In this document: positions 14,797 to 15,995 of the stretch, piece after piece
How positions within the stretch are numbered: the stretch's first letter is position 1
How the letters are laid out: the number at the start of each line of letters is the position of its first letter
DNA from: an uncultured Flavobacteriaceae bacterium
Lineage (GTDB): Bacteria; Bacteroidota; Bacteroidia; Flavobacteriales; Flavobacteriaceae
DNA length: 64,000 nucleotides
Reading direction: 5' to 3'
Assembly: GCA_947488435.1 (NCBI GenBank)
Contig: CANKZG010000001.1
Location: 1,418,308-1,482,307 of the forward strand
Program-made: the position numbers and the translations under genes
The notes under the pieces: model-generated
Told to the model about the DNA's origin: nothing
The model's input: only the letters and a program-made list of their open reading frames with translations
Databases searched by the model: none

Positions 14797-14905
14797 ATGC
14801 ATGCCTAATTAACACCGATTGATAATAAGAGATTTTGTATGGTAAGCCCCGCGTAATTGAGTTATTAATAGAGGGTTGTTTTTTTATTTGTAGTGATGAA
14901 CGCCA

Positions 14906-14944
14906 TAAAGCGTCGACTGTTTTCAGTCGACGCTTTATTTTTTT
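14906..14944 (+). terminator. strong Rho-independent terminator
   Basis: A perfect 14-base-pair stem: TAAAGCGTCGACTG (14906-14919) pairs with CAGTCGACGCTTTA (14924-14937) around TTTT, followed by seven T residues. It ends the DUF4142-cupredoxin unit and isolates it from the micro-ORF locus. Confidence 0.85.
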
Positions 14945-15051
14945 ATGAACAAATGATTTGCATAAAGCATTGATTGTTTGATGTTTAAGTATTCTTGAGT
15001 TCTTGGATATGTTAAATTATCCATAAAACAGTACCTTTTTATACATAGTAC

Positions 15052-15079
15052 TGTAACAAAATTAATTTTCCCTCGTCTA
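15052..15079 (+). promoter_or_regulatory. ECF-sigma-like promoter of the micro-ORF locus
   Basis: TGTAAC (15052-15057), 16 bases, CGTCTA (15074-15079). The first micro-ORF begins 46 bases later. This is the best-conserved of the three copies of this element in the window. Confidence 0.55.
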
Positions 15080-15124
15080 GTAGTTGTAAGTCAATTAAAA
15101 AACAACATTTAAAATATAGAAATT

Positions 15125-15238
15125 ATGAAAGCATCAATCACAAAAACGGCAACAGAATCTAAAACAGGACAGTATTTTTCTTCCTTTAGAAATAGCAAAA
15201 GAGCGCAATGGGCACAATACAGAAATTACAATCGCTAA
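15125..15238 (+). CDS. basic micropeptide A (37 aa)
   Basis: A 37-codon ORF beginning MKASITKTATESKTGQYF and ending in a region rich in Arg, Asn and Tyr (FRNSKR, YRNYNR). Net charge is about +7. It has no signal peptide or membrane segment and no family that I recognise. It has a near copy at 15524-15637: 34 of 37 residues are identical, and 8 of the 11 differing codons are synonymous, which strongly suggests that the peptide is translated and selected. The leader is A-rich with no Shine-Dalgarno, as is common for well-expressed Bacteroidota genes. It is the first gene after an ECF-like promoter. Confidence 0.7.
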   Translation: MKASITKTATESKTGQYFSSFRNSKRAQWAQYRNYNR

Positions 15239-15256
15239 AAATCAATTAGATAAGAG

Positions 15257-15316
15257 ATGATAACAATTGAATCCTTAAAAACTACGGTTGGGGAAAATCA
15301 ATTTTTAAATTCCTAA
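15257..15316 (+). CDS. possible 19-aa micro-ORF
   Basis: ATG ORF of 19 codons (MITIESLKTTVGENQFLNS) between peptides A and C. It is too short to judge and has no paralogue in the locus. It is listed because the locus is otherwise densely packed with small ORFs. Confidence 0.15.
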   Translation: MITIESLKTTVGENQFLNS

Positions 15317-15369
15317 AAACACTAACATCTTTGTGTCGTAATTAATCATCAACATCAAACAACAACAAC

Positions 15370-15489
15370 ATGGAAACATTACCACAATATTTACAACGCC
15401 CACGAATTCATTTTAGAATCGGATTTGGTTGGAATACAGATAGACTGTATGATTTAAAAATAAAGAACAGAAAAACGATTAAAAATTAG
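15370..15489 (+). CDS. basic micropeptide C (39 aa)
   Basis: A 39-codon ORF beginning METLPQYLQRPRIHFRIGFG and ending with a Lys/Arg-rich tail (KIKNRKTIKN). Net charge is about +6. It does not align convincingly with the neighbouring micropeptides but has the same size, basic character and A-rich, SD-less leader (CAACAACAACATG). It lies between the two copies of the A-type peptide and inside the same promoter-terminator unit. Translation is inferred from position and style, not from duplication. Confidence 0.45.
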   Translation: METLPQYLQRPRIHFRIGFGWNTDRLYDLKIKNRKTIKN

Positions 15490-15523
15490 AAATAACAATA
15501 ACCATTAAATAAAACAAAAAAAC

Positions 15524-15637
15524 ATGAAAGCATCAATCACAAAAACAGCAACAGAATCTAAAACAGGACAGTATTTTTCTTCTTTTAGAACTAGTAAACG
15601 AGCGCTATGGGCGCAGTACCGAAACTTTAATCGCTAA
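15524..15637 (+). CDS. basic micropeptide B (37 aa), paralogue of peptide A
   Basis: Near copy of the 15125-15238 ORF over the whole 114 bases, with the same start and stop. Differences are Asn to Thr at 23, Gln to Leu at 28 and Tyr to Phe at 35, plus eight silent codon changes. The similarity stops outside the coding frame: upstream leaders differ and are both A-rich. That pattern fits an old duplication kept for its protein product. Function is unknown. The high positive charge and lack of export signal would fit a nucleic-acid or ribosome partner, but that is only a guess. Confidence 0.7.
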   Translation: MKASITKTATESKTGQYFSSFRTSKRALWAQYRNFNR

Positions 15638-15677
15638 TCACGATTTGTAGTACCTCAATCCTTAAACGAACAAAATA

Positions 15678-15791
15678 ATGAAAACTAGCATCAATCAATT
15701 TCCAGCGAAATCCAGAAGGCTGCTGTTTCTTGCAAAACTTAGAAATAGTAGACGATTTCGTCGTACGGAACCATCATTTTGCCTTCAATAG
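15678..15791 (+). CDS. basic micropeptide D (37 aa), distant paralogue of A/B
   Basis: A 37-codon ORF beginning MKTSINQFPAKSRRLLFLAK and followed by LRNSRRFRR. Aligned without gaps to peptide A it shares M-K-x-S-I at the start, Ser-12 and R-N-S-[KR]-R at residues 22-26, so it looks like a diverged member of the same family. It is very basic (about +9). It is the last ORF before a strong terminator. The shared positions and equal length argue for translation, but divergence is too great to measure silent changes. Confidence 0.5.
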   Translation: MKTSINQFPAKSRRLLFLAKLRNSRRFRRTEPSFCLQ

Positions 15792-15808
15792 TATTCAGTA
15801 ATAAACTG

Positions 15809-15849
15809 AAAAAAAGGGGATACACTTCATCAATGTATCCCCTTTTTTA
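15809..15849 (+). terminator. strong terminator of the micro-ORF locus
   Basis: AAAAAAGGGGATACA pairs with TGTATCCCCTTTTTT around a 9-base loop (CTTCATCAA). The stem itself supplies the T-run. It lies 18 bases after peptide D and closes the unit. Confidence 0.85.
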
Positions 15850-15995
15850 TTTGGTATAGTTACTATTGCGCTTTTATTTTTGATAAAATTGGTGTGCTAA
15901 TCGATAATAAAGTTTATTTCAAATCAATTTTATTCCTTTACTTTTACCCATACCCTATATTGTAGTGTAATTTGTAATCAAACCAAAAGACCAAT

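Follow-up and report, generated by a model that had tools for sequence, protein, structure and literature searches.

Organization of the Micro-ORF Array

The window (the whole stretch of DNA that was analyzed, 64,000 nucleotides) carries four tandem micro-ORFs on the plus strand. ORF A (15125-15238, 37 aa) encodes an A-type micro-protein with the SKRAQWAQYRNY core, and ORF C (15524-15637, 37 aa), also of the A type, is a near-duplicate that is 92% identical to ORF A. ORF B (15370-15489, 39 aa; IGFGWNTDRLYD) starts with METLPQ and encodes a B-type micro-protein, which differs in type from A, C, and D. ORF D (15678-15791, 37 aa) belongs to a divergent last-ORF type and gave an E-value of 3.4e-4 against A1. 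The core tryptophan of ORF D is lost, and this part of the peptide reads SRRFRRTE; the same was observed in the last ORFs of several relatives, such as L126, L127, and L133. The genus of the window is represented by this genome only.

Two plus-strand terminators flank the array. The terminator of the upstream gene (14905-14938; -24.0 kcal/mol, z -9.25, 46 nt folded) sets the array apart from that gene, and an intrinsic terminator, a hairpin followed by T, lies after ORF D (15810-15848; -19.8 kcal/mol, z -4.74, 49 nt folded). The terminator scan assigned the second hairpin to the minus strand, and T also comes after it on the plus strand. An earlier note on this DNA had described four ORFs of 37, 39, 37, and 37 codons as a self-contained unit between strong terminators. 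The four ORFs were found at the claimed positions, together with both terminators and a promoter module of the array's own. The same note had ascribed an M-K-x-S-I start and R-[NT]-S-[KR]-R at residues 22-26 to peptides A, B, and D; the motif exists, but its bearers are A, C, and D, and B is of another type. The locus is real and larger than first described: the present analysis added a palindrome at the -35 element, another promoter-like element between A and B, a connection with a PadR/HAAS-PspC operon, and a set of 28-aa counterparts.

Conservation and Properties of the Encoded Peptides

The in-frame JC dN/dS was 0.11 for A (162 sequences), 0.18 for the last ORF (46 sequences), 0.16 for the other ORFs (23 sequences), and 0.29 for B, where the value derives from 7 sequences and 12 pairs only. 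In the +1 and +2 frames of the same ORF groups, dN/dS was 0.78-2.21. Only pairs that were 70-95% identical were taken for these values, and the pairs were not independent. The third codon positions were the most variable in the array alignments. One reverse-strand frame also showed a low pN/pS (0.31-0.46, and 0.68 for B), as is expected where the third codon positions of the two frames fall together. The start sites were rich in adenine, with A at -3 in 80% and 96% and A at -11 to -13 in 84-94%, and G was almost absent upstream of the starts. The part of PMC6847099 covered here describes A at -3 and at -11 to -13 as positive for initiation in F. johnsoniae. Judged from the sequences, the micro-ORFs are real conserved coding sequence, and the Ka/Ks check that the earlier note had proposed came out far below 1.

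The peptides carried a mean net charge of +6.0 (A) and +4.5 (B) and were hydrophilic, with an average GRAVY of -1.10. A membrane-spanning 19-residue stretch was sought and not found (highest mean 0.83), and the peptides had no hydrophobic export signal, as had been noted before. In an alignment of 42 sequences, M1, K25, R26, and W29 were invariant, and T10, F18, S19, and R33 were nearly invariant. The sequences share K-x3-W-x3-R-x-[YF] near the C-terminus. The related pattern W-x3-[RK]-x-[YFH] occurred near the C-terminus in 243 of the 293 A-type HMM matches and in 199/201 once the last ORFs of multi-ORF arrays were excluded; in the window, A and C carry it, and D, which has no W, lacks it. 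Helix-periodic conservation along the peptide was not significant (permutation p 0.42-0.48), and the AlphaFold models were poor (mean pLDDT 66.3 and 59.8; pTM 0.27 and 0.26).

A 21-member profile searched against PDB sequences found no ribosomal protein at E up to 10, and its only match was a capsid protein (0.37). No Pfam or NCBIfam model matched the micro-proteins. A known ribosomal protein was ruled out by the PDB, Pfam, and NCBIfam searches. Searches of open-licence PMC papers brought up no description of such micro-ORF arrays. The claim that the peptides belong to no described family thus agreed with the model searches; the family appears undescribed in the libraries and open-licence literature covered and appears easily overlooked by standard annotation. 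Stress-induced small proteins are, as a kind of system, already known.

Distribution of the Family and Array Types

When A was used as a single query sequence, A-like ORFs turned up in 35 of 299 Flavobacteriaceae genomes, most of them as tandem copies spaced about 150 bp apart. The reading frames were conserved in relatives when checked as previously suggested. Among close relatives, 65 loci lay in named genomes, including Maribacter, Ulvibacterium, Pricia, Arenibacter, Kriegella, Croceitalea, Croceivirga, Muriicola, Allomuricauda, Saonia, and others. A profile search run over 128 loci resolved them into 115 distinct arrays, in which 293 A-type ORFs were counted. The array types were AAA (28), AA (23), A (23), AAAA (19), BAA (7), BAAA (6), AAAAA (4), and ABA (2), with ABAA (the window), BA, and BAAAA seen once each. 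As read from the array listing, the last A of an array is usually of the divergent type. B stood in first place in 15 of the 18 arrays that carry it, and in the window it is second. A hairpin with a T-run (dG below -10) lay behind the last ORF in 63/110 37-aa arrays vs 5/103 random stretches.

A constant neighbor gene was sought beside the arrays, and the largest neighbor cluster, of AraC type, covered 25/115; no immunity or transport gene is therefore constant. Over a wider taxon range, an A-type search among 395 genomes yielded four Flavobacteriaceae and one weak match with a stop. Mobile-element relatives were absent from 72,556 plasmid and 50,697 phage records, and none of the 10 candidate viral contigs was confirmed as a relative of the family. 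Phage or plasmid cargo was ruled out by the lack of plasmid, phage, and viral-contig relatives.

ECF-Type Promoter Module

Pattern search and array consensus placed a plus-strand ECF -35 element, TGTAAC, at 15052-15057 and a -10 element, CGTCT, at 15074-15078, with a spacer of 16. The 64-kb window contains a single GTAAC-N16-CGTC (15053-15077), where shuffling predicts 0.10. The ECF-like promoter of the earlier note is thus present, and the same type precedes the relatives of the array: GTAAC-N-CGTC was found within 250 bp upstream of 80 of 112 arrays, the spacer being 16 in 76 of them and 17 in 4 (0.003 expected per 250 bp); three arrays with an upstream stretch shorter than 150 bp had been left out. 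The module consensus ahead of the arrays was TGTTAAAtatT..ATAAAATAGTACCTTTTtATACATAGTACTGTAACAAAA, followed by CGTCT. In the window, it includes a conserved AT-rich block upstream of the operator (15010-15030, plus strand; TGTTAAAT..ATAAAA type), which appeared in the consensus of 76 aligned arrays and with the 80 and 88 sites.

In the genome of the window, the ECF -35/-10 pattern gave 10 matches, all with spacer 16 where 15-17 was allowed, and the reversed pattern gave 6, so that the count alone is weak and single ECF-pattern sites prove little. Among the 10 were two DUF2807 genes and an operon in which a middle gene stands between an ECF sigma factor gene and DUF4252. The sigma gene and DUF4252 were confirmed by Pfam; the middle gene had no Pfam match and is a putative anti-sigma gene by position only. 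TGTAAC-N16-CGTCT precedes both the window array and the ECF sigma/DUF4252 operon. Because its operon has the same promoter, the sigma factor of that operon is most likely the reader of the array promoter and is our prime candidate.

Three ECF-type matches deserve mention. L120 and L121 (G000:C5:88403 and 88672) share an intergenic region, where they are separated by 269 bp, and the second precedes a short ORF, MNNFTLLLRFIRTP. L115 (G000:C1:2175842) is an ECF-type promoter ahead of a pair of similar exported proteins (114 and 111 aa). A gene resembling that of L115, as judged by eye, lies behind the 28-aa array in L271.

Palindrome and the PadR/HAAS-PspC Operon

A PadR-type palindrome, GTACCTTT-TTATA-CATAGTAC, lies at 15031-15051 and directly abuts the -35 element. 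The window copy is imperfect, with 13 of 16 specified bases, and the same score was reached once in 93 shuffles, so that it is weak on its own. Across the family, GTAC-N13-GTAC occurred in 74/80 ECF-positive arrays and in 3/32 others, and the 21-bp palindrome started 22 bases before GTAAC in 77 of the 80 ECF-positive 37-aa arrays. At the 88 motif sites described below, the right half of the palindrome is set by the search motif; thus, only the left half is informative there.

A similar site was found in the genome of the window, in the intergenic region ahead of the minus-strand DUF4870, PadR, and HAAS-PspC genes, and this PadR is the only one in the genome above the Pfam cut-off. In all of the 24 other genomes tested, GTACTATG-N5-CATAGTAC occurred at 14-16 of 16 at 0.6-1.4 kb upstream of a PadR gene; shuffled controls reached at most 13 of 16. 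The palindrome was missing from 6 of 31 PadR loci, which were paralogs in genomes having another positive copy, with 10 of 40 PadR matches left out of this comparison. Searched with up to two mismatches, the operator pattern gave 32 matches in the genome of the window vs 21 in the control, so that a single operator site likewise proves little. The palindrome is common to the array promoters and the PadR-gene regions, which suggests that PadR may bind at the array palindrome. HAAS-PadR pairs have been proposed as membrane-stress sensors with PspC (PMC11237479, in the part covered), and the DUF4870/PadR/HAAS-PspC group is a predicted envelope-stress sensor. A separate site, L192 (G000:C2:656824-656845, minus strand), matches AGTAC-N8-ACATAGTAC exactly and lies after a sigma-70-type gene and before a small ORF (MEKIYSEEHNAYQLM...).

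Other Promoters and Inputs

A second promoter-like element, AAAACTACGGTTGGG, lies between A and B (15278-15292, plus strand). Its pattern, AAAANTAC-N2-3-TGGG, was found in six of the 115 arrays (the window and five others), 88-98 bases before the next ORF; the control gave 3 matches in 1.82 Mb. The plus-strand sequence CATCTTTG (15326-15333) is a putative -7 box, one base off the flavobacterial sigma-A consensus TAnnTTTG given in the part of PMC9723704 covered. Boxes resembling it were found in L056, L132, and L133.

The ECF pattern was missing from 32/112 arrays, and an AraC-type gene lay within 1.5 kb of 18 of these 32; no such gene was found within 1.5 kb of the ECF-positive arrays. In 13 ECF-less arrays (L037, L050, L051, L052, L139, L151, L155, L157, L166, L167, L168, L170, and L189), a 681-689-aa AraC/TPR gene reads away from the array at 235-238 bp, and in two others a gene for a 290-aa AraC protein lies at 216-220 bp; one protein of each type was checked by Pfam. 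The 18 ECF-less arrays beside AraC-type genes indicate that envelope stress cannot be the only input. Together with the second element between A and B, the AraC-side arrays indicate that the peptides are controlled by more than one signal.

The Promoter Core as a Probe for Related Micro-Proteins

The 15-base core of the module, CATAGTACTGTAACA, was matched exactly at 35 sites in 34 genomes with arrays, and an array followed every one of these sites. The A search had already found 34 of these 35 arrays, and the new one carried 24-aa copies. Seven of 11 one-mismatch sites were not ahead of an array. The exact core occurred in 137 of 397 Flavobacteriaceae genomes and 97 of 237 genera, and among the matches listed for these 397 genomes, the reversed control gave one. 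In a class-wide sample, the core was found in 4/14 Flavobacteriaceae genomes and 1/381 others; the lone match outside the family lacked the CGTC element, overlapped a coding ORF, and was unlike the module.

A micro-ORF with W-x2-4-[RK]-x-[YF] followed 53 of 60 further core sites, and 38/60 had the strict form [ST][KR]-x3-W-x3-[RK]-x-[YFHL]. In control windows, the loose signature occurred in 65/1904, so that it can match by chance, and the strict form occurred in 4/1904. Seven of the 60 sites had no signature micro-ORF (L289, L310, L318, L327, L332, L333, and L347). In L285, L318, and L347, the module is followed by a 187-188-aa protein whose N-terminal part has a hydrophobic stretch and which contains repeats around [YF]LPxNFNPxKG; the L285 copy had no Pfam match.

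The commonest product behind the core was a 28-aa peptide of the MRTLNNNQLTGTLNGTKSNQWNTKRRYR kind, with 96 ORFs at 62 of 88 sites. Its dN/dS was 0.24 vs 1.47 and 1.12 in the other forward frames. The tail of the 28-aa peptide aligns with the 37-aa type, and M1, W21, and R25 were invariant among 21 sequences. A 44-aa ORF ending in W-K-G-T-K-R-Y-x-H often comes after the 28-aa ORFs, and an exbD-like gene lay behind the 28-aa/44-aa micro-ORFs at no fewer than 24 of the 88 sites, L266 among them, with one such gene confirmed by Pfam. The 28-aa members came to light through the promoter and not through a protein search. The promoter module is usable as a probe for micro-proteins whose shortness and divergence put them beyond homology searches.

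Discussion

We propose, with a probability of about 0.7, that the locus is a self-contained envelope-stress transcription unit encoding a tandem set of micro-proteins. The coding frames, the array order, and the DNA module are conserved, and the module's palindrome is also found upstream of PadR genes. As we picture its working, a repressor (or activator) of the PadR type, encoded in the HAAS/PspC operon, would sit on the palindrome abutting the -35 element and, under envelope stress, would let go or be switched. Transcription would then be started by an ECF sigma factor, for which the autoregulated one of the sigma/anti-sigma/DUF4252 operon is the most likely choice. The resulting short mRNA would be translated into several near-identical 37-aa copies, a B-type product, and a last-ORF-type product. 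Each ORF has its own A-rich start site, so the copy number would set the dose. The products, at a net charge of about +6, would remain cytosolic, and the response would amount to a burst of cationic micro-proteins.

That individual residues are invariant suggests a single, specific partner. The best candidate for it is RNA or the ribosome, as acidic macromolecules, a tentative assignment made from charge. Binding to RNA or the ribosome had also been proposed in the earlier note, and the idea is plausible. bTHX, Sra, and RMF are small ribosome-associated basic proteins that are short and have one conserved aromatic residue. The array peptides resemble them in length, basic character, and the conserved aromatic, but differ from them in that the profile search recovered no ribosomal protein from the PDB. 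The inner membrane or a membrane-stress protein may be the partner instead, which we consider the next likeliest possibility: the cationic, aromatic peptides would attach to acidic lipid or to a sensor of the PspC/HAAS type and stabilize the membrane or damp the signal. Such a role would fit the predicted control by the PadR of the HAAS-PspC operon, the exbD-like genes found behind part of the motif sites, and the content of K, R, W, Y, and F. It is countered by the hydrophilic composition, by the lack of a membrane-spanning stretch, and by a conservation that falls on single residues and forms no amphipathic face. A role in feedback, in which the peptides would switch off or adjust the same stress response by binding PadR, RNA polymerase, or the anti-sigma factor, seems unlikely to us. 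Their small size, their several copies, and their tight tie to one promoter module speak for such a function; however, arrays that lack the module and lie under AraC-side promoters keep the same protein core, and the peptides are therefore not tied to the PadR/ECF circuit.

Other readings of the array are far less probable. The operons of aureocin A70 and phenol-soluble modulin alpha are short and encode several cationic peptides of 20-40 aa that have no leader; these peptides are amphipathic or hydrophobic and exported. The array has a similar layout of short cationic leaderless peptides in tandem, here containing Trp, and might by analogy release antimicrobial or toxin-like peptides under stress. 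This is improbable, since the array peptides are hydrophilic, no gene family that could supply a linked transporter or immunity function stands beside most arrays, and the family combines strong purifying selection with the lack of plasmid, phage, or viral-contig matches. Slightly less probable still is that the micro-ORFs serve a downstream gene as attenuators or leader peptides, as the conserved C-terminal motif and the exbD-like gene behind some 28-aa arrays might suggest. The leader-peptide reading was rejected because terminators lie behind more than half of the 37-aa arrays and no downstream gene is constant; the several near-identical copies also speak against it. The least probable reading is a conserved RNA or DNA repeat with accidental ORFs. 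Tandem repeats about 150 or 250 bp apart and the low pN/pS of the one reverse-strand frame speak for such a repeat, but the variation concentrates in third positions and the only Rfam matches in the window were two tRNAs. An RNA-only element was rejected on the in-frame dN/dS, which lay well below that of the other forward frames.

Returning to the envelope-stress unit, we compared it with two described systems. In the part of PMC9723704 covered, the SM6 motif of F. psychrophilum has a CGT box at -10, an ECF sigma/anti-sigma pair lies within the regulon, and Rfp11 is an independent short transcript among the SM6 promoters. These three traits are points of likeness to the present system. That part of PMC9723704 mentions no GTAAC-type -35 element and describes the SM6 independent transcripts as without coding potential and Rfp11 as a structured regulatory RNA, a difference for which Rfp11 was compared by description only. 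The likeness to HAAS-PadR-PspC systems is that the PadR of this genome adjoins HAAS-PspC and DUF4870 in an operon that has the array-promoter palindrome. The difference is that no micro-protein target is named in the covered part of PMC11237479. The array would be a putative regulon member of HAAS-PadR-PspC and no part of the sensor itself.

More broadly, it is conceivable, and we advance it only tentatively, that Flavobacteriaceae share a class of 24-44-aa stress micro-proteins defined by the PadR-plus-ECF module and the W-x3-[RK]-x-[YF] tail and not by overall sequence. Such proteins might reprogram translation or RNA handling on envelope damage as the dedicated, mass-produced output arm of the HAAS-PadR-PspC sensor. 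With the array, the flavobacterial HAAS-PadR-PspC system gains a specific candidate target together with a DNA site, and the array offers a ready candidate reporter of envelope stress in a family whose regulation is little known.
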